From: Deltaproteobacteria bacterium
GTDB lineage: Bacteria; Desulfobacterota; DSM-4660; Desulfatiglandales; HGW-15
Length of the DNA: 21,487 nt
Direction: 5' to 3'
NCBI GenBank assembly: GCA_016926135.1
Contig: JAFGPH010000189.1
Span: forward strand, 1 to 21,487
The position numbers were made by a program, and so were the translations under genes. A model generated the notes under the pieces. That model was not told the origin of the DNA. It made no database searches and saw only the letters and a program-made list of their open reading frames with translations. Shown here in pieces: positions 433 through 15,901 of the stretch (position 1 is the stretch's first letter; the number at the start of each line of letters is the position of its first letter).

Positions 433-479
433 GGGACGATAAGAAGTTGGGCACGCTGCCCTTCTCGTCCCTTTATATT
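433..479 (+). terminator. Hairpin terminator between convergent genes
   Basis: GGGACGA at 433-439 pairs with TCGTCCC at 465-471. Inside it, GAAG/CTTC and a GGGC-ACGCT-GCCC hairpin continue the stem, with a small bulge (TAA). The stem is followed by TTTATATT. It sits between the end of the dehydratase-type gene (399) and the end of the oppositely oriented kinase (479). The T-run favours termination of the plus-strand transcript; the stem may also slow the minus-strand one. Confidence 0.6.
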
Positions 480-2767
480 CATTTGCTTTTCAGGGCCTTG
501 GCTATTTCCTCTGATAGGTCCGCCAGGCGAAAGGGCTTTTCCACGAAGGCCTGTGCCCCGGCCTTCAGCAGCTCCTGGACAGGACCGTCGTGGAAATAGC
601 CGCTGCAGACGATCACCTTCAGGCCCGGACGCTGCTCCATCATGCGGTGGTAGACGTCTCTCCCCCGCATGTCGGGCAGGAGAATGTCGAGCAGCATAAG
701 ATCGATTTGGCCCTTGTAGGACTTTGCCAGATCCAGGGCCTCCTTGCCGGTTGCGGCCGTCAGCACCTTGTAGCCCAATCTCTCCAGCAGGGTTCGGGTC
801 GTATCCGATACCGTCCTGTCATCTTCCACCAGCAGTATCGTACCACCGGCCTCGGGTTTTGCCATGTCGTCTTGCTTGATTCCTTTTGGCCACGCTGCCA
901 CGGGCGGGAGAAGGATGCGCACCCGCGTTCCCGTGCCGGTTTCAGATTCCACCTGAATCCAGCCGCCATGGTTCTTCACGATTCCGTAAACGGCGGCCAT
1001 CCCCAGACCGCTTCCCACGAGTTTGGTCGTGAAGAAGGGCTCAAAGATGCGGCTCCGGGTCTCTTCATCCATGCCCTTTCCATTGTCCTCAACGCTCAGG
1101 ACCGCATAGTCTCCGGGAATCAGCCCCGGATGGAGGGCTGCCTCCTCCGGGCCGACCGTCTCGTTTCCGCAGGTGACCCGAATGATCCCACCCCTTTGGG
1201 TGGCCTCCGATGCGTTGGCCAGCAGGGCGGAGAGGACCATCTGCAATTGTATCACGTCCGCCCGGACGTGCCGGGTATCATCGGGAAGATGGGTCTCCAC
1301 GGAGATGCCGGGGCTCAGGGTGTTTTCCAGCAACGGGAGGGTGTCTCGTACAAAATCGCCCAGGGGGATAACCCTGGCCCTGTATTTCCCACCCCTGGCA
1401 TAGGCCAACAACTGACTGGTCAGGCCGGCCATCTGCATGGCGGAATCCTTCATGGAATGCGCAGCTCTCACCACGCCCTCTTCTTCGGCGAAGTCCATCT
1501 CCAAGAGGTCCAGGTTCGCGGTGATCACGGTCAGGGCATTGTTGAAACGGTGGGCAACACCGCCAGCCAGCGTGGCGATGGCCTCCATCTTCTGGGCCTG
1601 CCGGAGTTGCCTTTCCAGGGCTTTGTGTTTCTCTTCGGCGCGCCTGCGCTCGGAAATATCGCGGCCCACCCCCAGGATGGCGACCGCCTTTCCGTCAGGG
1701 TCCCTCAGAAAGCTGAGTTTCACCTCACTCCAGTGGGTGGTTCCGTCCTTGCAGCGGGACTCGATTTCCAGGGTTCTGGACCTGAGAGGATCACTCCCGG
1801 GTGTGCTTTCCAGTGCCTTTTCTTCCGCCAGGACCTTCAGGGACAGGGCGAGGGAGTCCGGTGTGAGGACTTCCTCCACCCCCTGGGCCATGGCCTCTTC
1901 CGCCGTGTACCCCCGTGCACGCTTGACCGAGGGGCTGACGTAGGTGACATGGAGGTCCATGTCCGTGGTCCAGATCACGTCCGTCGCGTTTTCCGCAAGC
2001 AATCGGTATTGCCTTTCGGAACGGGTGAGCCTGTGGATCAGCTCCTCGCGTTCCCTGAGGAGGGCCTCATACTCCTCCACAAGGTCCCTCAACCCCACTC
2101 GCAGAGCTCCTCTGAGGAGCCTCTTCCAGAAAGAAGTCTCTTTCCAGGTCAGCCTGAAGATGCAGTGTTCAGCCCCATCCGCACAGCACTGGATCTCTTC
2201 GCATTGCACCCTTGTGGCCCCGGTGACCTTTGAAATGCCTGAGTATACCCCGAGATTCCAGTTGCAGATGTCTCTGGACACCGTGAACCCGGGGTAGTAG
2301 GAGAGTTGGAACACGGCCGAGTGATCGGTCAATTCAATGAGCTTCACTTCTTTGGTTCTGTTGAATTTTTTGTTGATCTTGGCGACCTGTTTCGCAAGGA
2401 ACTGGATCCCGAAGATGCGGCTGATAAAGAAGGAGGTCCTGGAAAAGGACTCCACAGCAGAGACCTCTCCTGCCGTAAAGAGGGGATTTGCCCCTCCGAC
2501 CACCCGCTTCACATTGGAGAACAGGGCCAGGCAGAAGGCGTAGGAGACCCAGTAGGCCGGATCCGTGAGGTGCTCGATCTGAACCGGCGATACATGGGAA
2601 GGATCATATTTGTACGCAATGAGGTATTGCTCGGTTCCCACCAGTCCCTCCACGACCTTCCCCACGCCCTCCTCACCGTAGTGGTTGCGGAGGAAGGCCA
2701 TCAACCCCTTGAAGTTGTGGCAGCTGACCTCCTTGGCCATGACCCTTGTGGTTTCTTCCGCGCCCAT
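479..2767 (-). CDS. Hybrid sensor histidine kinase: V4R-like sensor, PAS, HisKA, HATPase, receiver
   Basis: 762 residues. Residues about 1-215 form a sensory domain ending in a cysteine-rich CCADGAEHCIFRLTW strand, resembling V4R/heme-NO-binding-like domains. A helical linker (218-250) leads to a PAS domain (about 250-375). The H-box GGVAHRFNN places the phospho-accepting histidine at His406. The ATPase domain follows, with N-box Asn518, DNGKGMD near 561-567 and GSGLGM near 586. A C-terminal receiver domain (about 643-760) has Asp694 (LLDILLPD) and Lys744 (EKPF). No membrane segments are visible, so it is probably cytoplasmic. There is no DNA-binding output, so the signal presumably passes by phosphorelay to a protein outside the window. 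The start at 2767 has AGGAAAAGGG just upstream; ATG 2740 is an alternative. The gene is read through a c-di-GMP riboswitch and terminator (2788-2924), so its expression should follow the second messenger. The ligand of the N-terminal domain is unknown. Confidence 0.9.
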   Translation of the reverse strand: MGAEETTRVMAKEVSCHNFKGLMAFLRNHYGEEGVGKVVEGLVGTEQYLIAYKYDPSHVSPVQIEHLTDPAYWVSYAFCLALFSNVKRVVGGANPLFTAGEVSAVESFSRTSFFISRIFGIQFLAKQVAKINKKFNRTKEVKLIELTDHSAVFQLSYYPGFTVSRDICNWNLGVYSGISKVTGATRVQCEEIQCCADGAEHCIFRLTWKETSFWKRLLRGALRVGLRDLVEEYEALLREREELIHRLTRSERQYRLLAENATDVIWTTDMDLHVTYVSPSVKRARGYTAEEAMAQGVEEVLTPDSLALSLKVLAEEKALESTPGSDPLRSRTLEIESRCKDGTTHWSEVKLSFLRDPDGKAVAILGVGRDISERRRAEEKHKALERQLRQAQKMEAIATLAGGVAHRFNNALTVITANLDLLEMDFAEEEGVVRAAHSMKDSAMQMAGLTSQLLAYARGGKYRARVIPLGDFVRDTLPLLENTLSPGISVETHLPDDTRHVRADVIQLQMVLSALLANASEATQRGGIIRVTCGNETVGPEEAALHPGLIPGDYAVLSVEDNGKGMDEETRSRIFEPFFTTKLVGSGLGMAAVYGIVKNHGGWIQVESETGTGTRVRILLPPVAAWPKGIKQDDMAKPEAGGTILLVEDDRTVSDTTRTLLERLGYKVLTAATGKEALDLAKSYKGQIDLMLLDILLPDMRGRDVYHRMMEQRPGLKVIVCSGYFHDGPVQELLKAGAQAFVEKPFRLADLSEEIAKALKSK

Positions 2768-2787
2768 CCCTTTTCCTGACCCCGAAC

Positions 2788-2822
2788 AAAAAAACGCCCG
2801 CCACCTGAAGGGGAAGCGGGGT
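2788..2822 (-). terminator. Riboswitch-controlled intrinsic terminator
   Basis: Read on the minus strand, CCCGC...GCGGG forms the stem (with an internal mismatch and a further CC/GG pair), followed directly by a run of seven T (complement of 2788-2794). It lies between the c-di-GMP aptamer and the kinase start codon, about 20 bases upstream of the ATG. Its 5' arm ACCCCGCT (complement of 2815-2822) is perfectly complementary to AGCGGGGT in the 3' part of the aptamer (complement of 2843-2850), so terminator and aptamer compete. Confidence 0.7.
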
Positions 2823-2832
2823 TACGTCCTGC

Positions 2833-2924
2833 TCGCCTGGCGACCCCGCTACCTGGTGAAGATCAGACACGTTCAGGCCGGTGGCTTTGCGTCCCAACCT
2901 CTCGGATGGTTTGCCCTTCAGCGA
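2833..2924 (-). promoter_or_regulatory. Cyclic-di-GMP-I (GEMM-I) riboswitch aptamer
   Basis: On the minus strand the diagnostic core elements occur in order: GGGCAAACC, a stem CCATCC-GAGA-GGTTGG with a GNRA tetraloop, GGGACGCAAAGCC, ACCGGCC, a stem CCTG..GTG/CAC..CAGG, and GGTAGCGGGGTCGCC. The outer helix closes with TCGCTG pairing to CAGGCGA (one bulge). The position equivalent to G20 of the Vibrio Vc2 aptamer is G, as in c-di-GMP binders, not the A of the 3',3'-cGAMP-binding variants. It lies in the leader of the hybrid kinase gene, followed by a terminator. The overlap of aptamer 3' bases with the terminator 5' arm predicts an OFF switch: ligand-bound aptamer frees the terminator. The identification rests on recalled consensus and is strong; the direction of control is inferred. 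Confidence 0.93.
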
Positions 2925-3125
2925 AAAAAAGGTTTATACCTGAACATTCTATCGGCATCTTTAATCGAAAAAACAAGGATCTTCTTGGGTGTCCAAAAGA
3001 ACCTGCCACATTTCCACACCTCGAACAAGTCAAGAGGAGGTGATGAAGGTATCGTTTGTGGTTTCAGCACAAGAGGTGTACACGGCCCTCCCCCCCTGGT
3101 CAAGTCCCTCCGAAAAAAATCCACG

Positions 3126-3154
3126 TTGACACCTCACAGAACTTGATATAAATA
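3126..3154 (+). promoter_or_regulatory. Sigma-70-type promoter of the GntR regulator
   Basis: A perfect -35 TTGACA at 3126-3131 is followed after 17 bases by TAAATA (3149-3154), or after 15 bases by TATAAA (3147-3152). The region is markedly AT-rich against the GC-rich background. It lies about 55 bases upstream of the regulator start codon, and the palindromic operator begins ten bases downstream of the -10. Confidence 0.7.
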
Positions 3155-3163
3155 AATAAAATT

Positions 3164-3180
3164 AATTGGTCATACCATTC
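3164..3180 (+). promoter_or_regulatory. FadR/PdhR-type GntR operator (TGGT-N3-ACCA)
   Basis: An inverted repeat TGGT-CAT-ACCA at 3167-3177 lies within AATTGGTCATACCATTC. This matches the TGGTnnnACCA half-site pattern recognised by FadR-subfamily GntR regulators such as PdhR and LldR. It lies just downstream of the -10 region and ahead of the regulator's own ribosome binding site, the classical position for autorepression. Confidence 0.65.
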
Positions 3181-3206
3181 TACTTTTTCCTCTTGGAGGC
3201 AGACCT

Positions 3207-3938
3207 ATGGAACCCAAGGTCACCTTCCTGCCGACCATTCAGATACGGGCCTTTGAGGATGTGGCCGCCCAGATCAGGCAGGTCATCCTGGGTAAGCGCC
3301 TGCAACAGGGAGACCGACTCCCTTCCGAGAGATCCCTGGCAGAGCAGTTTCAGGTGGGCCGGCTCACCGTTCGGGAGGCCCTGAGAACCCTGGAGGCCAA
3401 TGGGTTGATCAGGATCAAGAAGGGCAGCAGCGGTGGGTCCTTTGTGGGCACTGCCGACCCCGGCGCGGTAGCCTCCATCATCAGGGACAATATGGTCCTA
3501 GAGGGCCTGACGAGCTCTCAGATCACGGAGGCCAGGCTTGCCCTGGAGCTTGCAACCGTCAAGTCGGCCATCGAGCGTGCCACCCCGGAGGACATCGACC
3601 GGATCCGGCACGACCTCAAAGAGACGAGAAAAATCATCGGGGAGGCGAGCCCCGGGCGGGCGGTCTCTCAGATGATCCGCTTTCACATTCTCGTTGCCGA
3701 AGCGTCCCACAACCTCCTTTTCATCATGTTCGTCCGGGCGCTGATGGAATGGGCAGAGAGCAGACCCATCCTCACCCAGTGGGTGCCCACCGTGGAGGAT
3801 CAGCGCTATTCGCAGCAGGCCCATGAACGGATCTTCGAGTCGATCAACAAGAGGAGTCTCCTTTCAGCCCAGCGGCTGATGAAAAAGCATATCGAAAGGA
3901 TGGCTGACCTGCTGAGCCCAAGCGGCGCCCGCGGGTGA
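3207..3938 (+). CDS. GntR/FadR-family transcriptional regulator (FCD domain)
   Basis: 243 residues. Residues about 8-78 form a GntR winged helix-turn-helix, with the typical GDRLPSERSLAEQF...GRLTVREALRTLEANGLI. Residues about 95-230 are an FCD ligand-binding domain with the usual histidines (FHILVAEASHN, AHERIF, KKHIERM), which in this family bind a metal that contacts carboxylate effectors. The start at 3207 is preceded by TTGGAGG at good spacing. It is the first gene of the transporter/redox block, with only 124 bases to the solute-binding protein gene. A matching operator (3164-3180) sits beside its promoter, so autoregulation and effector-controlled expression of the block are likely. The effector is probably the transported organic acid or a CoA derivative (inference). 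Confidence 0.9.
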   Translation: MEPKVTFLPTIQIRAFEDVAAQIRQVILGKRLQQGDRLPSERSLAEQFQVGRLTVREALRTLEANGLIRIKKGSSGGSFVGTADPGAVASIIRDNMVLEGLTSSQITEARLALELATVKSAIERATPEDIDRIRHDLKETRKIIGEASPGRAVSQMIRFHILVAEASHNLLFIMFVRALMEWAESRPILTQWVPTVEDQRYSQQAHERIFESINKRSLLSAQRLMKKHIERMADLLSPSGARG

Positions 3939-4062
3939 CAGACCCGTCAGGGGAGTGCAGGGTTTTGGAGAAGTGCCCACCGGCCGACCTCAATGCAGGA
4001 CGCCGTGATTGGCCGAAGGGTTCTTCGGTGTGAACCTTCCATCACAAGACAGGAGGACGGAG

Positions 4063-5121
4063 ATGAGAGGGAAAAGTTCTGGTTTTCGGTTCTTGGTCGC
4101 CGGTGTGAGTCTGTTCCTTGCCGCCACATTTTTCACCCCGACGGGTTCCGGGCGCGCTTTGGCCCAGCAGCCCTTTGAGATCACGATATCCACCCTTCCC
4201 GCCGGTTTTGCCTCCTACATCATGGGTGTCGCCCTAGCCGAGCAGGTCAACAAGAACAGCAAGTGGTTGCGTGCAACCGCCACAGAGGGAAGAGGGCCTG
4301 CGGAACACATGAAACTCCTGGTCACGAAACCGGAGAAACGCAAGGACTACCTCTTCTTCAATACCACCTGGGATATCTGGGAGGCCAAGAAAGGTATCGG
4401 ACCCTACGCCGGATTTCCCTTCAACTACGACGAATTCCGTTTTGTGTGCATCATGGGGATCGCCGGGAACGGGCTCTGCACCCTGGACCCCAAAATCAAG
4501 ACCCTCAAGGACATCGAAGGCAAAAGGGCCATCTTCGACTCCGGCAAAGGCAAAGGGAGGGAGATCACCTATTCGGGCGTGCTCCAGGCAGCCGGCGTGG
4601 CCGTGGACAAGATCAAGTTCCAGTACTCTACGGGCAGTGCGGCCGCCAATGCCCTCAGGGACGGACTCGTGGATGTCATCTATACGGGCCACGTTCTGAA
4701 GGATCTGCCTAACGTGTACGTCAATAGCCCCTATCAGGCGGAGCTGGTGGCTGCCAAGGACACCTACTTCATTCCCTTCGATGCCAAGTCCGTGAAGGCA
4801 TACAAGGAAAAGACGGGGCACCCCTTGGCCCTTGTAAAGGTGCCATCCAAGATGCTCGGACCCAAGCAACCCGAGCCGTGCGGCGTCCTCATCAAACCGC
4901 TCGGCTTTGCCGCCCACGTCAGCATGCCTGAACATGTGGTCATGGAAGTCCTGAGGGTGGCCTATGAGAATGCCCAGAAATTCAAAGAGTACACTCCCAT
5001 GGCGGCAATCTTCACCAAAGAGACGCTGGCCTCCCTGAGCATACCCGCTGAAGGATATCATCCCGCTGCGGTCAAGTTTTTTAAGGAGAAGGGCGTCAAG
5101 ATCACGGGTTTCGACGAATAG
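4063..5121 (+). CDS. TAXI-family TRAP transporter solute-binding protein
   Basis: 352 residues from the ATG at 4063, chosen because AGGAGG (4051-4056) precedes it and it opens directly with a signal peptide. An in-frame ATG at 4009 would add 18 residues with no better signal. The signal peptide is RGK, then a hydrophobic VAGVSLFLAATFF stretch, cut near ALAQQP. The mature protein has the TAXI fold pattern: ITISTLPAGFASYIMGVALAEQVN at the start, later AIFDSGKGKGREITYSGVLQAAG and GSAAANALRDGLVDVIY. It should bind an organic acid in the periplasm and hand it to the permease encoded next. TAXI proteins bind ligands such as glutamate, 2-oxoglutarate or other dicarboxylates; the ligand here is unknown. 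Confidence 0.88.
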   Translation: MRGKSSGFRFLVAGVSLFLAATFFTPTGSGRALAQQPFEITISTLPAGFASYIMGVALAEQVNKNSKWLRATATEGRGPAEHMKLLVTKPEKRKDYLFFNTTWDIWEAKKGIGPYAGFPFNYDEFRFVCIMGIAGNGLCTLDPKIKTLKDIEGKRAIFDSGKGKGREITYSGVLQAAGVAVDKIKFQYSTGSAAANALRDGLVDVIYTGHVLKDLPNVYVNSPYQAELVAAKDTYFIPFDAKSVKAYKEKTGHPLALVKVPSKMLGPKQPEPCGVLIKPLGFAAHVSMPEHVVMEVLRVAYENAQKFKEYTPMAAIFTKETLASLSIPAEGYHPAAVKFFKEKGVKITGFDE

Positions 5122-5247
5122 GACTCTCCTGGAGAAGGGCGCCGTCCCCTTCAGGGCAGACCCGATTCCCCTGTCTCTGAAGCGGATGGAACCCGCGTGA
5201 CGATCATCCTGCTCGGCAGGAATCCACCTCTGACCGCGCGCGATTGC

Positions 5248-5270
5248 GCAGGGCACGCGGAATGCCCTGC
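5248..5270 (+). promoter_or_regulatory. Perfect 8-bp hairpin between binding-protein and permease genes
   Basis: GCAGGGCA (5248-5255), a 7-base loop and TGCCCTGC (5263-5270) form a perfect GC-rich hairpin about 20 bases upstream of the permease start. No T-run follows, so it is not a classical terminator. In transporter operons such hairpins after the binding-protein gene protect that part of the mRNA or dampen downstream expression; that role is inferred. Confidence 0.5.
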
Positions 5271-5290
5271 CTGTGGAGGGGTATCCCGGA

Positions 5291-7165
5291 ATGGAGAAGA
5301 CTGAAAAGGAGAAGACTCCCCTCATCATGGTCGTGGTCGGCCTGGCCATGGCACTCTACCATATGCTGGCCACCCAGGTTTTTCTGCAGCCCGTCAAACC
5401 TCATTTGAATACCCATCTTGCCTTCTGCCTGCTCCTTGTATTCCTGGGGGACGCTACCGGCCGAAAGGGCGGTTTTCAGAGATGGTCAGCCGTCATCCTT
5501 GCCCTGCTGGCCCTGGCCTCCACGCTATACGTGCAGGTTCTCTGGGAGGACCTGGAAAACAGGGCCTACTTCAACAACCTCCCGGACCTGATCGTCGGAG
5601 TTGTCCTGATCGTGCTCGTCCTCGAAGCGACTCGCCGCGACTTCGGTGTCATCCTTCCTCTTCTGAGCCTCCTCATGGTCCTGTACCCATTTCTGGGCAA
5701 GGCCCTTCCCGAGCCCTTTCGATGTCAGGCCATGGACCTGGAGCAGACCATCTCCAATCTCTCGATCGGGCTTCAGAATGGGATCTTCGGCATCGTGCTG
5801 CCCACCTCCGCTAATTTCATTTTTCTCTTCGTGCTCTTCGGGGCCCTCCTCCAGGCCATGGGGGGGACGCGGTTCTTCATGCTTCTTGCAAAGCTTGTGG
5901 CCGGTAAGATGCAGGGCGGACCCGGAATGATGGCGGTCATCAGCAGTACCCTGGTGGGATCCATCACGGGCAGCGCGGCCGCCAACGTGGCCATCACGGG
6001 GTCCTTCACCATACCGCTCATGAAACGGGTGGGCTACAAGCCCGAATATGCGGGCGCCATCGAAGCGGCGGCCTCAAACGGGGGCCAGATCATGCCCCCC
6101 GTGATGGGAATCGTGGCCTTCGGCATGGCGGGCATTACCGGGATACCCTACCTGACCATCATTGCCATGGCCCTGATCCCCGCGCTGCTCTATTACTGGA
6201 CGGTGGGATTGTATGTCTATTTTCGCGCTGGCCAGCTCCGGATCAAGGGCATAGAGGACGAACGCGTCGATATCCGGGATGTGCTCTACGCCATGCCGTC
6301 TTTTGTCGCACCCTTTGTGGTCATCATCGTGCTTCTCGCGAAGGGTTACAGCGTCATGTACGTGGCCTTCTGGGCGATTGCAAGCTCCATCGTGATCGCC
6401 TATCTGAAGAAGGATCGTCCCTCCGTCAAAGACATGATAGCGGGCTTTGCCAAGGGTGCCAGGGCTGGGGCCGGGATAGGCGTATCCGCTGCCTGCGTGG
6501 GGCTCATCATGGCCACGGTGACCATGAGCGGCCTGGGTGTCAAGCTCTCCTCCGGCATTCAGGCCTGGAGCGGAGGGTATCTCTTTTTGGGTCTCGTCAT
6601 CATTGCCGCCATATGCGTCCTCATGGGGTGCGGCGGGCCTTCTCTCACCGCCTATTTTATCGTATCCATGTTCGCCACGCCCGCCCTGATGAAAATGGGG
6701 GTAGGCTTCGAACAGTCTCACTTCTTCACCATGTTCTTCGCCGTGTTCGCGTTCTTGACCCCCCCCGTCGCGGTGGTGGCCTTGGTCGCGGCAAAGCTTG
6801 CAGGGGCCTCCTATATGCGGACCGCCGTAGAAGCCACGAAGGCTGCGATCGGGGGATTCGTCATTCCCATCATGTTCACCTACTGTCCTGTTTTGCTGCT
6901 GCAACCCCAGGAACCCTTCGCAGCCGTCCTAGGGGTGACGGCCAGCATTCTGTGCCTTTCCATCTTTGAGGTGGCTGTGGTGGGCTATTACCTCGTGCCC
7001 TGTTCCAGGCTGGAAAGGTCGCTGGCCCTCGCAGGGGCCCTGTCTCTTTTCCTCTTCTTTATCTTGCAGAGCTTGGTGCTCATGGCTGCAGGGGTCGTTC
7101 TGTGTGTTCTGGTGACATCCCTCCAGATCACCAAGAGAAAGGCTGCAAAGGTCGTGGGCGGGTGA
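5291..7165 (+). CDS. TRAP transporter fused permease (DctQ-DctM type, TAXI partner)
   Basis: 624 residues from the ATG at 5291, which has GGAGGGG at 5275-5281; a GTG six codons upstream is possible but lies on that ribosome binding site. Many hydrophobic segments run along the length: a small N-terminal DctQ-like part (about residues 10-130) fused to the large DctM channel. The channel signature lies around the middle of the protein: GSITGSAAANVAITGSF, then EYAGAIEAAASNGGQIMPP, and later MGCGGPSLTAYFI and FLTPPVAVVALVAAKLAG. This fused form is typical for TAXI systems, which use a sodium or proton gradient. It lies directly downstream of the solute-binding protein gene; its stop is 21 bases ahead of ferredoxin 1. 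Confidence 0.92.
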   Translation: MEKTEKEKTPLIMVVVGLAMALYHMLATQVFLQPVKPHLNTHLAFCLLLVFLGDATGRKGGFQRWSAVILALLALASTLYVQVLWEDLENRAYFNNLPDLIVGVVLIVLVLEATRRDFGVILPLLSLLMVLYPFLGKALPEPFRCQAMDLEQTISNLSIGLQNGIFGIVLPTSANFIFLFVLFGALLQAMGGTRFFMLLAKLVAGKMQGGPGMMAVISSTLVGSITGSAAANVAITGSFTIPLMKRVGYKPEYAGAIEAAASNGGQIMPPVMGIVAFGMAGITGIPYLTIIAMALIPALLYYWTVGLYVYFRAGQLRIKGIEDERVDIRDVLYAMPSFVAPFVVIIVLLAKGYSVMYVAFWAIASSIVIAYLKKDRPSVKDMIAGFAKGARAGAGIGVSAACVGLIMATVTMSGLGVKLSSGIQAWSGGYLFLGLVIIAAICVLMGCGGPSLTAYFIVSMFATPALMKMGVGFEQSHFFTMFFAVFAFLTPPVAVVALVAAKLAGASYMRTAVEATKAAIGGFVIPIMFTYCPVLLLQPQEPFAAVLGVTASILCLSIFEVAVVGYYLVPCSRLERSLALAGALSLFLFFILQSLVLMAAGVVLCVLVTSLQITKRKAAKVVGG

Positions 7166-7186
7166 GGAAGAAAAGGAGCCGATGGT

Positions 7187-7441
7187 ATGGGATTCAATCA
7201 CATCTATTTCGACGAGGAGAGTTGCGAGGGGTGCAACATGTGTGTCGAGGTCTGCATGTGCGACACCTTTGCGCCCAATCCTGTCAAGGGGAAGCCCCCC
7301 ATCGTCCGGTATCCGGATGAATGCTGGTTCTGCGGCAGCTGCATCACCCACTGCCCTCGCAAAGAGGATGGCGCCATCCGCATTCTCACCCCATTTCAGA
7401 TGCGCGGCTCCTTCCAGAGGAGCGCAGACCGAGCGTGCTGA
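7187..7441 (+). CDS. 2x[4Fe-4S] ferredoxin, AprB-like (ferredoxin 1)
   Basis: 84 residues. Two complete cluster motifs are visible: Cys13-x2-Cys16-x2-Cys19-x3-Cys23 and Cys46-x2-Cys49-x2-Cys52-x3-Cys56-Pro. The insert between them (NPVKGKPPIVRYPDECW) is like that of the beta subunit of adenylylsulfate reductase, but the long C-terminal tail of true AprB is absent. AAGGAG (7172-7177) precedes the ATG at 7187. It lies between the permease and flavoprotein 1 (34 bases to the next start), so it is very probably the electron-carrying subunit of that flavoprotein. It is paralogous to the ferredoxin at 11353, which has lost one ligand. Confidence 0.9.
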   Translation: MGFNHIYFDEESCEGCNMCVEVCMCDTFAPNPVKGKPPIVRYPDECWFCGSCITHCPRKEDGAIRILTPFQMRGSFQRSADRAC

Positions 7442-7475
7442 TGGGTTGTGCGGAAGAAAGGGAGAAGGCTGAAAC

Positions 7476-9251
7476 ATGGTGGCGATGAATATCCTTTCGG
7501 CAGAGACGGATGTTTTGATCATCGGGGGCGGCCTGGCCGGCTGCATGGCGGCCATCCGGGCTGCTGAGCAGGAAGGGGTCAGGGTCACCCTCGTGGACAA
7601 GTCAAACACCCTTGCGAGCGGTTGTGCCGGTTCGGGCATTGACCATACCTGGGCCTATGTCCCCCCGGTCCACGAGAGAATGGGCTATCGCCTGGAGGAC
7701 ATGGCCGAGGACCATCGTATTGGGACGTCTTACGGGTTCTTTCGCTGCGACCTCTTCCATCTTGCCGCAGCCACGATGTATGAGCGGGTGCTGGACCTGG
7801 AACGATTCGGTATCCGCTTCAGATATGAGGACAGTCGGATTCCGGGCGGGTTCAGGGTAGTCCAGCAGTTTCACAGCGTTCCCACCTCCCTGAACTTCGA
7901 CGGGGAACCCCTGAAACCGGTACTCACGAGGGTGGCAAGGAAAAGGGGGGTCAGGATCGTGAATCGGGTTCAAACCACGGACCTCGTCGTGACCGACGGG
8001 CAGATCGCCGGGGCCGTGGGGGTGGGCACGCGGACGGGGGATGTCCACTTCTTTCGCGCAAAGGCCGTCGTGCTCGCTTCCGGGAGGTCCAACCGCCTCA
8101 GCCGCAACCCTGGCGGATTTGACTTCAACACACGCATGCCCTCCCCCATGAGCGGGGACGGCACGTCCATGGCCATGCGCGCCGGGCTGTCCGTGATCAA
8201 CATCGAGTTCCTCAGCAACATCCTGGGTCTGGGGCCCTGCGGCAATTACAACCCCAACTACGGCGATCCGCGCAACACGGTCCAGCCCGCGGCCAGGATC
8301 GTGGACGGGAAGGGAAACGTGATCATCCCCAGGACCCAATTCTATGACTGGGAGAGCCTGGGCAAGGAGACGTGGACGCAGGAGGTGAGGAGGAGGTGGC
8401 TGGAGGATCGAAAGGCATGGCGAGGTGCCCGGGCAGGCCTGCCCAAAAGGCATGCCGCAGGTGAAGGGCCTTTCTTTCTGGACTTCAGCGAGGCCACGGA
8501 CGATGAGATCGACTACATTGAATGGTCCATCAGGAACGAGGGCAAAGGCACGCAGTTCCTGCGCTACTTCCAGGAAGAGGAAAGGGCAGATCTGAGACGA
8601 AACAGGCAGGAGTATGCGGGCCTTTGGCCGCGCGAGATCTCAGGAACGGCGGCCAAGGGGCTGTGGGTGGACCGGGACCTGGAGACGGAGGTGGGCAACC
8701 TTTTCGCGGCCGGCGATGAAGTGGGCGGACTGCCGTGGCAGGCCTCGACCGGGGCCTTTACCCAGGGGTGGCATGCCGGTGCCATGGCTGCCGAACGCGC
8801 AAAGAGGCAGCAGGGCTTCAACCCTTCGAAAGAGGAGACCGTCAAGAGAAGGGCGGAGATGTGTTCGGACATCCTGCAGCGGAAAAGGGGGTTTCACTGG
8901 AGGGAGGTGGAGGTCGGGGTTCAGAACCTCATGGACTTCTACTGCGGAGATGTGCGCAGCGCGGATCTCCTGAAACGGGGGATCGAACGTCTCGAAGACG
9001 CCAAATCCGCGCCCCTCGGGGCGGAAAACCCCCATGAGCTGGCACGGTGCCTGGACGTAAAATCCATTGTGGACAACGCAGAGCTGGTCCTGCGGTCTTC
9101 TCTGGAAAGACGGGAGAGCCGACCGGGACCGCTCGGTTTTGTGAGGGCGGACTATCCTGAGCAGGACGATCAGAACTGGCTTGTGTTCCTGGCCGTCCGA
9201 AAGGCTGAAAACGGGGAGTTCCAGTTCTCGAAGCTCCCCGTGGACCGATAG
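7476..9251 (+). CDS. FAD-dependent oxidoreductase, fumarate reductase/AprA-like (flavoprotein 1)
   Basis: 591 residues. The N-terminal Rossmann motif DVLIIGGGLAGCMAA (Gly17-Gly22) binds the ADP part of FAD; a second FAD contact is GNLFAAGDEVGG near residues 406-417. This is the FAD_binding_2 architecture of fumarate reductase and adenylylsulfate reductase alpha. A C-terminal helical part ends in SLERRESRPGPLGFVRADYP, as in those subunits. The capping-loop segment after the second FAD motif reads LPWQASTGAFTQG, without the histidine expected there in AprA, so APS reduction is unlikely. The start at 7476 has GGGAG upstream; ATG 7485 is an alternative. The paired ferredoxin 1 gene lies immediately upstream. 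It probably reduces or oxidises the carboxylic acid imported by the adjacent transporter; substrate unknown. Confidence 0.87.
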   Translation: MVAMNILSAETDVLIIGGGLAGCMAAIRAAEQEGVRVTLVDKSNTLASGCAGSGIDHTWAYVPPVHERMGYRLEDMAEDHRIGTSYGFFRCDLFHLAAATMYERVLDLERFGIRFRYEDSRIPGGFRVVQQFHSVPTSLNFDGEPLKPVLTRVARKRGVRIVNRVQTTDLVVTDGQIAGAVGVGTRTGDVHFFRAKAVVLASGRSNRLSRNPGGFDFNTRMPSPMSGDGTSMAMRAGLSVINIEFLSNILGLGPCGNYNPNYGDPRNTVQPAARIVDGKGNVIIPRTQFYDWESLGKETWTQEVRRRWLEDRKAWRGARAGLPKRHAAGEGPFFLDFSEATDDEIDYIEWSIRNEGKGTQFLRYFQEEERADLRRNRQEYAGLWPREISGTAAKGLWVDRDLETEVGNLFAAGDEVGGLPWQASTGAFTQGWHAGAMAAERAKRQQGFNPSKEETVKRRAEMCSDILQRKRGFHWREVEVGVQNLMDFYCGDVRSADLLKRGIERLEDAKSAPLGAENPHELARCLDVKSIVDNAELVLRSSLERRESRPGPLGFVRADYPEQDDQNWLVFLAVRKAENGEFQFSKLPVDR

Positions 9252-9354
9252 CAGGGTTTTTCTTGGCAACGTGTCGGGCACAAAGGACGTGCTTCGAGTG
9301 AGCCGCCTTGAGGCCTCTCATGGAACACGCACAGAGGGGGAAAGGGAGTAGAAC

Positions 9355-11295
9355 ATGCTTTGGAGAGAACTGGTTCTTCGTCACGGTATCCCGGAGTGGC
9401 CCTATCCGGTTCGCTATGGAGAGGAGTCCCAGCTCAGCGGGGATGTGCTGGTGCTGGGCGGCGGTATCGCGGGTTGCTGGGCCGCCATCGGCGCGGCCCG
9501 CAAGGGCGCGGATGTCATCCTGGTCGAAAAGGGCGCCACCATCAAGAGCGGTTCCGGAGGGTCGGGGTGCGATCACTGGCTGAACACGCCCCACCCCGGC
9601 TCGCCAGTGACCCCCGAAGAGGTGGTGGAGTGGGAGCTGGAGATGACCGGCGGTTATACCAATGCCCTTTCGAGGTATATCGCGGCAAGGGAGAGTTTCG
9701 AGACCCTTCTTGAACTGGAGAAGATGGGCGGAAGGATCCGGGACACCAGGGACGAATTCAAAGGCGCCCCTTTCCGTGACGAGGAAACGCGCTTCCTCTT
9801 CGCCTATGATTACGAAGGAAGGGTCCACTTCCGCGTCTGGGGAAGCACCTTTAAGATATCCCTTCACAAGGAATGCAGGAGACTGGGGGTTCGTATCTTT
9901 GACAGAATCATGGCGACAGGGCTCCTGACCGAAGGGGGAAGATCGTGCCGCAGAGTCATCGGTGCCGCGGGAGTCCACTCCAGGACGGGGGCGTTCTTCA
10001 CCTTCCGGGCAAAGGCCGTGGTGGACTGCCTGTCGCGGCACCAGCGGAACTGGTGCTTCTCCACGGAAATCAGGGGGAATGCCAATTTCAGGCCCACCCA
10101 GATCGTCGGAGACGGCCATGCCATGGCGTGGCGAGCGGGTGCGGAATTCACCATGATGGAGAAGTCCCTGCCCACTTCCTTTGCAAGCGGGAATGTGTTC
10201 CCGCCTTACGGCCATGGCAACGCGCTCAACACATGGGTTCCCTGTACCCTGGTGGATGCCCGGGGAAAGCAGATTCCGTGGGTGGACCGGGACGGGAAGG
10301 TGCTCACTTCCGTGGAGGAACGCACCAGGCCCTCAGCGGGCCAGAAGTTCATGGGCGAACGGACCCCTGCCTACAAACACAAACGGCCGGAACCGATTCC
10401 GGACCTGGAGGAACGCATCCGAAGGGGAGAATTTCAGCTTCCCCTCTACGCGGACCTGCCCGGGATGCCGGAACACGAGAGGAAGGCCATCTGGGGTCTC
10501 ATGGTCGGGGAGGAGGGAAAGACCAGGATCCCCGTATACACCCTTTACACGGAGTCCGGCTTTGACCCGAGCAGGGATTTGCTTCAGAGCTACACGTTCC
10601 TGGGCAGCGACCCCATGAGGGCGGGTGTACGGCCCCAGGACCGGACCGGAGGGGAGATCGGGGATGCCGGTGGGCTCGTCACGGACTGGACCCTCATGAC
10701 CAGCCTGGAGGGTCTCTTTGCGGCGGGCGACGCCCTCTTCGGGGCCAACTACCACTATCACGCGGCAACGACGGGGAGGTATGCGGGCAGGAAGGCGGCG
10801 GAATACGCCATGAAGGCGCAGGAGATCTCCCCCGTTCGCAGCCAGGTGGACGAGGAAAAGGCCAGGGTCTATTCGGTTCTGGGGAAGAGCGGCCGAATCG
10901 AATGGAAGGAGTTGAATGCGGCTGCCTGCAGAATCATGCAGAATTATTGTGGAGAGTACAAGAACGAGGGACTTCTCACCATCGGCCTCCACTGGCTGGA
11001 AGATCTGAGAAGGAATGAAGGCGCTGAGTTGTGTGTGGATACGCCCCACAAGCTGATGCGCGCCCTGGAGGTGTTCAACATCCTAACCTGCGACGAAATG
11101 ATCATCCATGCCTCCCTGGCCAGAAAGGCAAGCTGTGGCCCCTTGGGCTTTTTCCGTCTGGACTTCCCCCAGGTCGATCCTCCCCCTTGGCGCAAGTGGG
11201 TGATCCTCAGACAGGAAGAGGGTACGGTGAAGACCGGTGATCTGCCCCTTGATTTCTGGAAACCTCTGGCGCAGAACTACGAGAGACACCGTTGA
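9355..11295 (+). CDS. FAD-dependent oxidoreductase, fumarate reductase/AprA-like (flavoprotein 2)
   Basis: 646 residues, with GGGAAAGGGAG ahead of the ATG. The Rossmann motif DVLVLGGGIAGCWAA (Gly35-Gly40) is preceded by about 29 extra residues relative to flavoprotein 1. The second FAD motif is GLFAAGDALFGANYHYHAATTG near residues 451-472; it is rich in histidine where flavoprotein 1 has tryptophan and glutamine, so the two enzymes differ at the active site. The C-terminal domain is paralogous to flavoprotein 1: YCG, LLxxGLxxLED, PHxLxRALEV, SLARKASCGPLGFFRLDFP and a tryptophan-containing tail. It lies 103 bases after flavoprotein 1 and is followed by its own ferredoxin. Likely a second redox enzyme of the same pathway, or the partner subunit of a heteromer (inference). 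Confidence 0.87.
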   Translation: MLWRELVLRHGIPEWPYPVRYGEESQLSGDVLVLGGGIAGCWAAIGAARKGADVILVEKGATIKSGSGGSGCDHWLNTPHPGSPVTPEEVVEWELEMTGGYTNALSRYIAARESFETLLELEKMGGRIRDTRDEFKGAPFRDEETRFLFAYDYEGRVHFRVWGSTFKISLHKECRRLGVRIFDRIMATGLLTEGGRSCRRVIGAAGVHSRTGAFFTFRAKAVVDCLSRHQRNWCFSTEIRGNANFRPTQIVGDGHAMAWRAGAEFTMMEKSLPTSFASGNVFPPYGHGNALNTWVPCTLVDARGKQIPWVDRDGKVLTSVEERTRPSAGQKFMGERTPAYKHKRPEPIPDLEERIRRGEFQLPLYADLPGMPEHERKAIWGLMVGEEGKTRIPVYTLYTESGFDPSRDLLQSYTFLGSDPMRAGVRPQDRTGGEIGDAGGLVTDWTLMTSLEGLFAAGDALFGANYHYHAATTGRYAGRKAAEYAMKAQEISPVRSQVDEEKARVYSVLGKSGRIEWKELNAAACRIMQNYCGEYKNEGLLTIGLHWLEDLRRNEGAELCVDTPHKLMRALEVFNILTCDEMIIHASLARKASCGPLGFFRLDFPQVDPPPWRKWVILRQEEGTVKTGDLPLDFWKPLAQNYERHR

Positions 11296-11352
11296 GGGCT
11301 TCGCCGATTCCGGAAACCGATACCGTGAGAGACATGAACCAAGGAGACAACC

Positions 11353-11655
11353 ATGGCTGAGCAGAAGGTGTATGCCCTTCCCAACTGGTGCACGCCCAGC
11401 ACCCCTGTCACCTTTGACCCGGACATCTGCAACGGCTGCAACCAATGCGTGGAGGTCTGTCAGGTGGACGTCCTGATCCCCAACCCGGAAAAGGGAAGAC
11501 CCCCGATCGTGCTCTACCCTGAGGAATGCTGGTACGGCGGCTGTTGTGAGGGCGCCTGTCCCAGGCCGGGCGCCATAACCCTACACCTCCCCGTTCCCCA
11601 GTTGGTCCGGTGGAAAAGGAAGAAGACGGGGGAGCATTTTCGCGTCAAGAGATAG
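11353..11655 (+). CDS. Ferredoxin, AprB-like, with one altered cluster motif (ferredoxin 2)
   Basis: 100 residues; AAGGAG precedes the ATG. The first [4Fe-4S] motif is complete (Cys26, Cys29, Cys32, Cys36). The second reads C-W-Y-G-G-C-C-E-G-A-C-P: Cys59, Cys65 and Cys69 are in register, but the second ligand position is Gly62 (GGC codon), and an extra Cys64 is present. In ferredoxin 1 the same position is Cys49. The spacer NPEKGRPPIVLYPEECW is nearly the same as in ferredoxin 1, so the two are paralogues. The protein has an additional N-terminal extension with Cys13 and a basic C-terminal tail. It probably serves flavoprotein 2 just upstream. Cluster II may be [3Fe-4S] or use Cys64. Confidence 0.88.
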   Translation: MAEQKVYALPNWCTPSTPVTFDPDICNGCNQCVEVCQVDVLIPNPEKGRPPIVLYPEECWYGGCCEGACPRPGAITLHLPVPQLVRWKRKKTGEHFRVKR

Positions 11656-11765: not shown

Positions 11766-13100
11766 ATGGAGAAAGGCAGCACAAGAGCCCGCATCCTGGT
11801 CATCGACAACGACGCTGTGGCCTGTGAGTTCCTGGAAGAGGCCCTTTCCCGGGAGGGCCATGAGGTTCATTCCTTCACCTCCCCGAAGGCGGCCTTCCAG
11901 CAGGACATCCCCCAGTATGACCTCCTCATCTCGGATATCCGCATGCCGGAAATGGACGGTCTTCAGCTCCTCCATCACGTGCGGGGGCACCACCCGAACC
12001 TGCCTGTGATCCTCATGACCGCTTACGGGTCCCTGGAGACAACCATGGAAGCCCTCCATTCCGGCGCCTGGGACTACATCAGCAAGCCGTTCTCCCCCGA
12101 GGCCATCCGTTCCATGGTGAAAAAGATCCTGGCCGTGAGGGATCTTCACCAGCGACGGATGAGGGGACAGCCGGAGAAGGAGGAAGAACCCCAGTTCATC
12201 GGCTCCTCATCAACCATGGTGGAGTTCTACAAGCAGCTCGTGAGGGTGGCCGATGCCTGGGCGAGCGTTCTCATCGAGGGCGAGAGCGGCACGGGCAAGG
12301 AACTCACCGCCCGCTCCCTTCACCAGCTCAGCTCCCGCAGCGAAAAGCCCTTTGTGGTGGTGCATTGCGGGGCCATACCGGACACCCTGCTGGAGTCGGA
12401 GCTCTTCGGTTACGAGAAGGGGGCCTTTACCGGAGCTGATCACACCCATCCGGGATTGCTGGAATCCGCCTTGGGCGGCACCATCTTCCTGGACGAACTC
12501 ACGGAAATGTCTACGGCCCTCCAGGGAAAGCTGTTGCGTTTCATGCAGAACGGCGAGATCCGGAGGCTTAGAGGTCGCGACATCCGGAGGGTACAGGTCC
12601 GCGTGGTGGCTGCGGCAAACAGGCGCGTGGACGATGAGGTGGCCGAGGGCCGGTTCCGGTCGGATCTGCTCTACCGCTTTGTGGTGCGACTCCATATGCC
12701 CGCCCTGAGGGAACACAAGGAGGACCTTCCCCAGTTGATCAAGTCTCTGCTCGGCAAGATGGGGTTTCCTGCGGTGCGCCTGCCGGATGAGACCATGGAG
12801 CGTCTCATGGCCTATGACTGGCCCGGAAATGTGCGGGAACTCCAGAACGTGCTCCAGCAGACCCTGCTTCTGTCCCCGTTTCCTCTCATTCTTCCCGAGA
12901 ACCTGCCGGAGAGATTTCGTCGGAAGGAGGAAGCCCCCCTGCCTTCCCTGAACCCGCTGGAGGCCGCAGAACGTGCACAAATCCTGCAGACGCTTCGGGC
13001 CACCTCGTGGCACCAGAGCAAGGCAGCCCGGATCCTCGGGATCGATCGAAAGACCCTGCGGGCCAAGATCCAGCGCTACGAACTGGCAAGGGAGGGGTGA
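11766..13100 (+). CDS. NtrC-family sigma-54-dependent response regulator
   Basis: 444 residues in three domains. The receiver (about 8-120) has the phosphorylation site Asp57 (LLISDIRMPEMDG) and Lys107 (SKPF). The AAA+ domain (about 143-375) has Walker A GESGTGKE (172-179), the sigma-54-contact loop GAFTGA (219-224), Walker B TIFLDEL near 239-245, and arginine-finger region RFRSDLLYRF. The C-terminal Fis-type helix-turn-helix is QSKAARILGIDRKTLRAKI near 417-435. It should activate a -24/-12 promoter when phosphorylated. No convincing GGCAC-N5-TTGC site was found by eye within the window. The ribosome binding site at the ATG is weak: GGAGG at 11745-11749 is 16 bases away and better spaced for an in-frame CTG at 11757. 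Its gene overlaps by 25 bases the 3' end of a broken histidine kinase gene on the other strand, probably its former partner. Confidence 0.92.
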   Translation: MEKGSTRARILVIDNDAVACEFLEEALSREGHEVHSFTSPKAAFQQDIPQYDLLISDIRMPEMDGLQLLHHVRGHHPNLPVILMTAYGSLETTMEALHSGAWDYISKPFSPEAIRSMVKKILAVRDLHQRRMRGQPEKEEEPQFIGSSSTMVEFYKQLVRVADAWASVLIEGESGTGKELTARSLHQLSSRSEKPFVVVHCGAIPDTLLESELFGYEKGAFTGADHTHPGLLESALGGTIFLDELTEMSTALQGKLLRFMQNGEIRRLRGRDIRRVQVRVVAAANRRVDDEVAEGRFRSDLLYRFVVRLHMPALREHKEDLPQLIKSLLGKMGFPAVRLPDETMERLMAYDWPGNVRELQNVLQQTLLLSPFPLILPENLPERFRRKEEAPLPSLNPLEAAERAQILQTLRATSWHQSKAARILGIDRKTLRAKIQRYELAREG

Positions 13101-13910
13101 GTCCGCCGGGTGTCCCCTGTGAGCGGAAAATGGAGGGTGATCCCGGTCCCGGTTCCGGGGTCACTCCGGATCTCCATGCGGACCCCGTGTATCTTGACGA
13201 TGTCCTGAACAATGGAGAGGCCTAGGCCCTTCATTCCCTGTTCGGACCGGGTGCTGAAAAAGGGCTCAAAGACCCTTTCCATCAGCTCCGGAGGGATACC
13301 GGGTCCCGAATCCTGAACCGTCAAGGCCACGGCTTCACCGTTCGGCAGACAGGATGCAGCGACTGTTATGCTCCCCCCGCCGGGCATGGCCTCCACAGCG
13401 TTCTGGATCAGATTGAAGAGGGCCGTCTGAAGGCGGTACCGGTCCACATAAATGGGAGGGATCCCCGGTTCGATCTGGACGTCAAGGTGGATACCCGATT
13501 TCTGAATCATGGGCTCGGCGAGGGGTAGGGTCTCGTTGAGCAGTTCCTGGACCGGGACCGACTCGAAATGGGGCTCAGGCAGGCGTGTAGCCCGGCGCAC
13601 GTTCTGGATAACCCTGTCCAGTCGCTGGGTCTGCTGCACGATGAGCTCCAGTTTGCGGCTCACATCCGCCGGCGAGGCTGACATCGGCCATGAGGTGATC
13701 CCTCAAGGCGGTGTCTAGGGCCGACAGACCCTTGCGGGTGGGGAAGTGCTGGTAGTAGGTGCCCACGGTTTCAGCGATCGCTTGGAGTTTCCGCCCCACT
13801 TGGCCGTCCAGGATCTCATCCAGGGCCTTCAACTGAACCCAGCCCCAGGCGGCCATGGCCACGGCCAACCCAAGGATGGAGGCGATCATCAGCCTGGCGC
13901 GTACGGTCAT
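13076..13910 (-). pseudogene. Membrane sensor histidine kinase broken by internal deletion and frameshift
   Basis: Starting at ATG 13910 (GAGGG upstream), the first frame encodes a membrane anchor (RARLMIASILGLAVAMAAWGWV) and the start of a sensor domain, up to about MADVSLAGG. The rest of a kinase is encoded in another frame (13684 down to 13076): the helix after the H-box (QQTQRLDRVIQNVRRATRLPEP), the N-box NLIQNAVEA, DSGPGIPPE, FEPFFSTR and GLGLSIVQDIV. Missing between them are most of the sensor, the second membrane helix, any HAMP/PAS and the H-box with the phospho-accepting histidine. The junction lies in an imperfect 13-base direct repeat, 13657-13669 and 13676-13688 (11 of 13 identical, 19-base period), so frame is lost there. 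It converges on and overlaps the NtrC-type activator gene by 25 bases. Confidence 0.8.
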
Positions 13911-14878: not shown

Positions 14879-15901
14879 ATGAACCCCACAAAGAACAAGA
14901 TCGTACGAAGCCTGTGCTGGTTTGCCGAATCGACGGACCCGCAGATCATTCATGGTCTCGGCCAAATCGAATCGGTGCTGACCGGGCATGGCTACGAAGT
15001 CCAGTCGCGACGGGTGTGCTTCAAGCAGACGTCCATCGAGGAGCTCGAATCCTGGAGTTCCCCTGGGGATCTGTACCTCGGCATGGGCACGCTGAGCCCT
15101 GAAGAAGCGCAGACCCAACTGGGGGATTTCCTGCGTGCATCCAGGGTGTCTTTCAACCTGGATGCGAGTGCCGCTGTCGGTCCGGCCGAGGTAGAGGTGC
15201 TTCAGCGCATCATCCGTGAATCGCCCGCCAGGACATTCCTTTTTGCCTATACCTTCCACAACCGCCCCTCCAGCCCCTTCTTTCCGTCCGCCGCCTTTGA
15301 TCGGCCGGGCTTCAGCCTGGGGCTCCAGTCCACGGACCTCGCCGAAAACTGCACGACCCTGGGAGAGTGGATGGATGCCATGAGGGAGGTCTGGCGGGAG
15401 ATGGTTGGGATCCTGGATGAGCACCCGGGATTCCTGGGAATCGACTCCTCTGTGGCACCGCTTTTCAGGGGAAAGAGCAGCCTGGTTCATTTTGTCAAGA
15501 GGCTCTGCGGGAGCTTCTCCAGTGCCGTCACCACGGACCTGTTCCTGAAACTCACCCGCTTTCTGGAGGAAGAGAACCCCAGGCCCGTAGGGCTTTGCGG
15601 CCTGATGCTCCCCTGCCTGGAGGACTTCGAACTGGCGGACGAGTACGAGGCAGGAGAATTCACGGTGGAGAGAAACCTTTTTCTCTCTCTCCACTCTGGC
15701 CTCGGCGTGGACACCTATCCGGTCGGGATCGACGAGGACCCCGACAGGATCCTGGAGGTGCTTCGACTCATTCGGGGCCTGTCCGAGAAGCACGCAAAAC
15801 CCCTCTCGGCCCGTTTCGTATCGGACGGAAAGGCCCGGATCGGCGACATGACCGATTTTGGCAACCCCTACCTGAAGGATGTAAGGATCCGTCCGCTGTG
15901 A
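14879..15901 (+). CDS. DUF711 (UPF0210-like) family protein
   Basis: 340 residues; GAGGTGAC precedes the ATG. The C-terminal half carries DUF711 hallmarks: GLGVDTYPVGIDEDPDRILEVLRLIRGLSEKHAKPLSARF, then GKARIGDMTDFGNPYLKDVRI, close to the recalled family pattern GxDxVPVPGDT...KPLxxRLxPVPGKxxGDMTxF. An IDSSVAPLF segment in the middle matches the conserved active-cleft region. The family is structurally related to glycyl-radical enzymes but is not known to form a radical; its reaction is uncharacterised. No signal peptide, so cytoplasmic. It is shorter than many UPF0210 members (about 450). It lies upstream of and co-oriented with the acyl-CoA dehydrogenase/Etf genes, but a 178-base gap with a possible promoter separates them. 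Confidence 0.75.
   Translation: MNPTKNKIVRSLCWFAESTDPQIIHGLGQIESVLTGHGYEVQSRRVCFKQTSIEELESWSSPGDLYLGMGTLSPEEAQTQLGDFLRASRVSFNLDASAAVGPAEVEVLQRIIRESPARTFLFAYTFHNRPSSPFFPSAAFDRPGFSLGLQSTDLAENCTTLGEWMDAMREVWREMVGILDEHPGFLGIDSSVAPLFRGKSSLVHFVKRLCGSFSSAVTTDLFLKLTRFLEEENPRPVGLCGLMLPCLEDFELADEYEAGEFTVERNLFLSLHSGLGVDTYPVGIDEDPDRILEVLRLIRGLSEKHAKPLSARFVSDGKARIGDMTDFGNPYLKDVRIRPL

Follow-up and report, generated by a model that had tools for sequence, protein, structure and literature searches.

We found a canonical c-di-GMP-I (GEMM-I) riboswitch, probably of the Cd1 (OFF) type, on the minus strand of the window (the whole stretch of DNA analyzed, 21,487 bases), which we predict with reasonable confidence to control the synthesis of a hybrid histidine kinase. 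Its leader displays the layout of Cd1-type OFF switches, namely an independent terminator and an antiterminator that share the 3′ strand of the aptamer. The description of this platform draws on its sequence elements, a covariance match, complementarities that are rarely reached in shuffled sequences and computed folding energies; from these we infer the ligand, the direction of the switch and a physiology in which the kinase would be made only at low c-di-GMP.

The aptamer and its predicted ligand

An Rfam covariance search recovered RF01051 (c-di-GMP-I/GEMM-I) at 2925-2836 on the minus strand over the whole model (1-87/87), with 59.7 bits against a curated cut-off (gathering threshold) of 35 bits and an E-value of 1.2e-9. 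This is the sole Rfam match at the gathering threshold on either strand of the whole 21,487 bases. The search, which the first-pass annotation had itself proposed for the minus strand, bears out its claim that the minus-strand leader is a GEMM-I aptamer with the conserved elements of the family. With the leader numbered from nt 1 at 2925 on the minus strand, P1 (2925-2920/2837-2832, i.e., nt 1-6/89-94; UUCGCU/GGCGAG) is present in the minimum-energy folds at each of the transcript lengths folded (96, 100 and 104), and the full aptamer including P1 therefore occupies 2925-2832 of the minus strand. These folds also contain P2, which is capped by a GNRA loop (GAGA), and P3. The letters expected to contact the ligand in GEMM-I are found as G11 (2915), A38 (2888) and C86 (2840). 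G11 and A38 are given in the available text on the Bc1 riboswitch as the equivalents of Vc2 G20 and A47 (PMC11218506), and this equivalence is carried over here by position, with G11 additionally placed by the RF01051 alignment; the likely equivalence of C86 to Vc2 C92 is deduced from its position.

The letters of the pocket favor c-di-GMP over the ligands of the GGC and cGAMP variants, both of which share the overall aptamer fold with the window. The c-di-GMP-I-GGC variant (RF03167) has a consensus G at position 47, where the window has an A (A38). By E-value, this model was the best match of its clan in two short-range scans, but its 57.7 bits fall under its cut-off of 59, and the A at position 47 together with this score rules the variant out. 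The cGAMP-selective GEMM-Ib RNAs, such as Gmet_0970, have an A at position 20, and we reject such a type for the window on account of its G (G11); the role of this nucleotide is taken from the accessible portion of PMC6456294, in which an A20G change converted a cGAMP riboswitch to c-di-GMP. The same letter prevails among 139 sampled aptamers (see below), with G in 122, A in 7 and 10 unreadable by pattern. The part of PMC9262584 that bears on this, however, treats position 20 as one factor in selectivity and not as a hard filter, and another ligand (cGAMP or that of a rarer variant) is hence conceivable, although with the above points against it we consider it very improbable. The earlier prediction of c-di-GMP from the G at the Vc2 G20 position thus agrees with the pocket letters, but that position is less decisive than had been assumed.

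Terminator and antiterminator contacts

Downstream of the aptamer, nt 104-132 can form an intrinsic terminator hairpin (2795-2822, minus strand; terminator arms T and H) with one bulge and one mismatch, which runs into a tract of seven U at 2794-2788. Its local fold energy is -14 to -16 kcal/mol, varying with the choice of ends, and in one terminator fold the first U of the tract is also paired. For nt 99-133, an equally stable fold arises in 2.65% of 2000 dinucleotide shuffles. A simple terminator scanner missed the hairpin, probably because of the mismatch and bulge in the stem, but the terminator with seven T that had been read from the sequence by eye is present. The T7 run at 2794-2788 is one of three in the window when both strands are counted, all of them on the minus strand. 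Another of these (2924-2930, minus strand) lies immediately upstream of the aptamer, right after TATAAA, and may coincide with the transcription start or come after a tiny AGGT/ACCT hairpin. A simple scan of the minus strand for a sigma-70-like promoter in 2700-3300 returned none, which weighs against the proposed switch.

Two stretches of the terminator are complementary to the aptamer. The first contact joins the A strand (2843-2850, minus strand; AGCGGGGU, nt 76-83), which is the 3′ strand of P3 and is common to the aptamer and the antiterminator, to the T strand (2815-2822, minus strand; ACCCCGCU, nt 104-111), which is the terminator 5′ arm and its perfect complement over 8 bp. The first-pass annotation had pointed to these same stretches, AGCGGGGT (complement of 2843-2850) and ACCCCGCT (complement of 2815-2822), and both their positions and their full complementarity are exact. 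A perfect 8-bp match between the downstream stretch (nt 95-131) and the P3 3′ strand (nt 70-83) is reached in 0.72% of 5000 shuffles, in keeping with a real contact, while 7.1% of 5000 shuffles contain an 8-bp match to some place in the aptamer, which weakens the claim. There is a second antiterminator contact that was overlooked in the earlier reading: the 5′ lock strand (2914-2921, minus strand; CUGAAGGG, nt 5-12), which spans the edge of P1, J1/2 and the ligand-contacting G11, is perfectly complementary over 8 bp to the terminator loop with its closing pair (2805-2812, minus strand; CCCUUCAG, nt 114-121). In 2.0% of 5000 shuffles, nt 6-13 find a complement of 7 bp or more, by a test chosen after the pairing was seen, and in 0.02% of the 5000 this occurs together with an A:T match of at least 8 bp, the second criterion again being set post hoc. 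The minimum free energy of the whole leader is unremarkable (z -0.31), and the case accordingly rests on the covariance match and these specific pairings.

We compared this platform with other GEMM-I leaders in a set of 140 (the 139 sampled and the window), in 101 of which the terminator finder called a weak terminator or none. The remaining 39 terminator-bearing leaders (window included) comprise 33 of OFF type (window included) and 6 that are ON-type by a crude rule. Among the former, the window has the longest match between the A strand and the downstream sequence (8 bp, reached in 0/200 shuffles), with at most 6 bp in the other 32. At a shuffle p<=0.05, the A:downstream match is seen in 3 of the 33 and the match to the 5′ strand in 5, and by this test neither contact is general in OFF-type leaders.

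Predicted direction of the switch

We propose that the aptamer would be complete at about nt 94 and that its fate would be decided as nt 104-121 emerge. If no ligand is bound, the terminator 5′ arm would strip the 3′ strand from P3 (A:T, 8 bp), and the terminator loop would seize the aptamer 5′ strand with its pocket G (5-12:114-121, 8 bp). Such a double lock would both break the aptamer and remove the terminator arm, allowing RNA polymerase to read on. If instead c-di-GMP is bound before about nt 111, the aptamer would keep P1 and P3, the terminator hairpin would form and transcription would stop at U7. High c-di-GMP would then mean OFF, with the kinase produced only when c-di-GMP is low.

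Ensemble energies were computed for growing transcripts with the aptamer, the antiterminator or the terminator enforced. The aptamer dominates at n=94-102, where 1.0-1.4 kcal/mol separate it from the full ensemble, and at n=114-126, with the terminator 3′ arm incomplete, the A:T (antiterminator) ensemble beats it by 8.0-14.4 kcal/mol. At n>=130 with the aptamer enforced, essentially the whole ensemble holds the terminator. At n=138 and equilibrium, the terminator has a probability of 0.0004 without ligand, which rises to 0.036, 0.46 and 0.87 with ligand bonuses of -4, -6 and -8 kcal/mol, respectively. However, at n=122-126 the antiterminator accounts for >99% even at a bonus of -10 kcal/mol, which counts against an OFF switch at equilibrium; given this dominance, we infer that OFF would need capture of the ligand between about nt 94 and 111, i.e., kinetic control. 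The computed energies and the aptamer-enforced folds thus lend support to the earlier proposal that ligand binding frees the terminator, with the full-length minimum-energy fold leaving room for the opposite direction.

In that fold (-50.8), the aptamer segment GACGC..GCCACC (nt 33-46) pairs with GGUGGC..GCGUU of the terminator 3′ arm beside the U-tract, in a helix that could itself terminate. If the ligand-free RNA formed this extended terminator and the ligand broke it, the riboswitch would be an ON switch. The helix belongs to both the minimum-energy and the centroid fold of the whole leader and is as favorable as the A:T ensemble at n>=134, and ON-type GEMM-I leaders exist, both in the published pilM example (PMC9262584, in the text available) and in the six recognized above by the crude rule. 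Yet the loop it closes is multibranched and some 75-95 nt in size, and the helix can form only once the U-tract is being made, whereas the aptamer-held state makes a strong local terminator of its own. Moreover, the pilM terminator, as far as its description in the same source goes, uses the aptamer A strand (T+A+H), while here the partner of A is T, which lies 20 nt ahead of the U-tract. On balance, an ON switch appears unlikely, and we retain the OFF reading.

The putatively regulated kinase and its genomic context

The gene downstream of the leader (479-2740, minus strand) codes for a hybrid histidine kinase that combines a V4R/H-NOX-fold sensor with PAS, HisKA, HATPase_c and receiver domains, as assigned by Pfam and a fold search, and has no response-regulator gene adjacent to it. 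Translation probably starts at the ATG at 2740, not at 2767, because the Met there is invariant in 30 aligned sequences (window included). The product had first been described as a V4R-PAS hybrid kinase; the V4R match itself is below the Pfam cut-off (25.8 vs. 31 bits; PF02830). The sensor domain has a conserved zinc-type site. A PDB sequence search with the sensor-domain profile returned no match, and the fold search took its place.

In H-NOX domains, heme is bound with the YxSxR motif and a proximal His (His103 in S. oneidensis). The YxSxR motif is found in 0/30 of the aligned kinase sequences, and no column between residues 58 and 240 has His in >=50% of them, whereas His57 is present in 30/30 and His20 in 80%, as compared by alignment column. 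With YxSxR missing, heme binding by this sensor looks unlikely. The lack of YxSxR and of such a His column, as well as the sub-threshold Pfam V4R score, set it apart from the known V4R (e.g., DmpR and PoxR) and H-NOX sensors.

The window features a second histidine kinase (13076-13910, minus strand), which adjoins a sigma-54 response regulator (11766-13100) and is split over two overlapping frames, of which 13575-13910 is without a Pfam match and 13076-13684 carries HATPase_c; it is either a broken gene or the product of an assembly error. Genes for two fumarate-reductase-like flavoproteins, each paired with a small 4Fe-4S protein, occupy 7187-11655 of the plus strand; they adjoin a DctM-type transporter with an NMT1-like binding protein (4009-7165), and near the transporter, at 3207-3938, is a GntR/FCD regulator. 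Our guess is that the cluster at 4009-11655 takes up an organic acid and metabolizes it reductively. The window also codes for a DUF711 protein (14879-15901, plus strand), the Pfam match of which spans the C-terminal part of the profile only and which has 1047 related proteins at E<=0.001. A search for it in 395 genomes at E<=1e-80 gave no match, an empty result that carries no weight by itself. Relatives of this protein and of the kinase suggest an origin in the Thermodesulfobacteriota, and the host is probably an uncultured anaerobe.

GEMM-I leaders and their target genes

The combination of this leader with this kinase was seen only in the window among the loci we compared. RF01051 was found in 0/28 loci with relatives of the sensor domain (27 informative), and the GNCGCAAAG core in 0/28 of these loci within 500 bases upstream, where L001 offers only 19 bases. 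Further stretches (L059-L076) likewise gave 0/18 matches to RF01051, 16 of them being new (L059 and L075 duplicate L004 and L005), and a plasmid collection had no match to 2500-3300. No close relative sharing this leader turned up in these loci, so covariation lends the platform no support. The absence of the pairing from every relatives' locus examined also speaks for a relic or constitutive leader, whose aptamer may bind although the kinase is no longer regulated, and Bc1 is reported, in the available part of its description, as a conserved GEMM-I RNA that hardly regulates and is unresponsive in vivo (PMC11218506). However, the aptamer elements, the terminator and the two antiterminator contacts are all intact in the window, an unlikely outcome of neutral decay, and we see only a slim chance of such a relic compared with a working OFF switch.

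RF01051 is common, with matches at E<=0.001 in 177 of the 395 genomes taken from the phylum to which G003, the source of locus L004, belongs. The 139 GEMM-I loci sampled are high-scoring matches and not a random draw: 30 come from 17 kinase-bearing genomes (one of them Desulfotruncus arcticus), to which 29 and 80 among the matches listed were added, with some tandem neighbors and repeats skipped in the 80-locus part. Four of the 139 had no usable frame, and the commonest Pfam domains downstream in the 135 frames read are fn3 (24), InlB-type repeats (12), PKD (10) and TadE (9). With a kinase profile built by us from relatives of the window's kinase, a kinase domain was found in the first downstream gene of 0/139 sampled leaders within short flanks; many loci extend only about 1.5 kb downstream (three were extended), such that a farther kinase domain could be missed. 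The profile did match in 5/139 loci, but in three of these the matching frame begins right at the edge of the locus, some 1.5 kb upstream of the aptamer, and in one the match is on the other strand. In the fifth (L123), GEMM-I is followed by an HDOD gene and then by a GAF-PAS-HisKA kinase as the second gene.

Other sampled leaders precede sensory or signaling genes. One (L186 of G335, also L088) has GEMM-I and a strong independent terminator before a triple-PAS, GGDEF-like protein (GGDEF read by eye) and is a candidate c-di-GMP feedback loop. GEMM-I precedes a Cache receptor in L047 and, as read by eye from the translation, a CHASE2 protein with a protein-kinase-like part in L187. Receiver or PAS domains occur 1-2 kb downstream of GEMM-I in L173, L181 and L148; the first of these, which has both domains and an A at position 20 (the cGAMP-type letter), is possibly a two-component operon.

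Relation to known systems and significance

The closest published scheme is that of Cd1, the flgB leader of Clostridioides difficile, which in the accessible text of PMC9262584 is likewise a GEMM-I switch of the transcriptional OFF type with its terminator (T+H) downstream of the aptamer and an antiterminator (T+A+H) that uses the aptamer A strand. The likeness is one of scheme, and the window differs in its second perfect 8-bp contact, between the terminator loop and the aptamer 5′ strand with the pocket G, and in its target, which is a hybrid kinase in place of flagella.

Control of a kinase had been put forward as a novel link between c-di-GMP-binding RNA and the phosphorelay, but this was overstated: Cdi-2-2 of C. 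difficile is a c-di-GMP riboswitch that precedes the cmrRST operon with its histidine kinase gene cmrS and raises the operon's expression (PMC6837544, from the portion available). Going by its name, Cdi-2-2 belongs to class II; it activates a three-gene operon that has an invertible element, in contrast to the class I, predicted repressing, leader of a single hybrid kinase in the window. Bc1 of Bacillus thuringiensis, with its G11 and A38 at the same positions, is also a GEMM-I leader of a sensory gene (a chemotaxis receptor), but it differs from the window in having two terminators, and it activated reporter genes in B. subtilis and responded poorly in its own host (PMC11218506, in the text available). 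Judging from the available portions of these sources, the Cdi-2-2/cmrRST and Bc1/chemotaxis receptor pairs mean that an RNA link from c-di-GMP to two-component gene expression was already known. In the literature searched, with partial coverage, we recognized no GEMM-I before a V4R-type kinase, nor a V4R/H-NOX-fold hybrid kinase preceded by a class I OFF switch.

The GEMM-I riboswitch described here is hence of a known kind and well supported, its platform is unusually legible and its target gene is unusual. If our reading is right, it defines no new class of system but adds histidine-kinase synthesis to what GEMM-I RNAs switch and offers a compact, fully legible OFF switch with a double lock that would be useful for in vitro transcription. 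More tentatively, the double-lock platform may make the OFF response to c-di-GMP unusually sharp, and the orphan hybrid kinase under its control might read the redox state or an aromatic compound through its V4R/H-NOX-fold sensor with the zinc-type site. If this were true, the cell would drop this sensing pathway at high c-di-GMP, and the phosphorelay would be gated by the second messenger at the RNA level.
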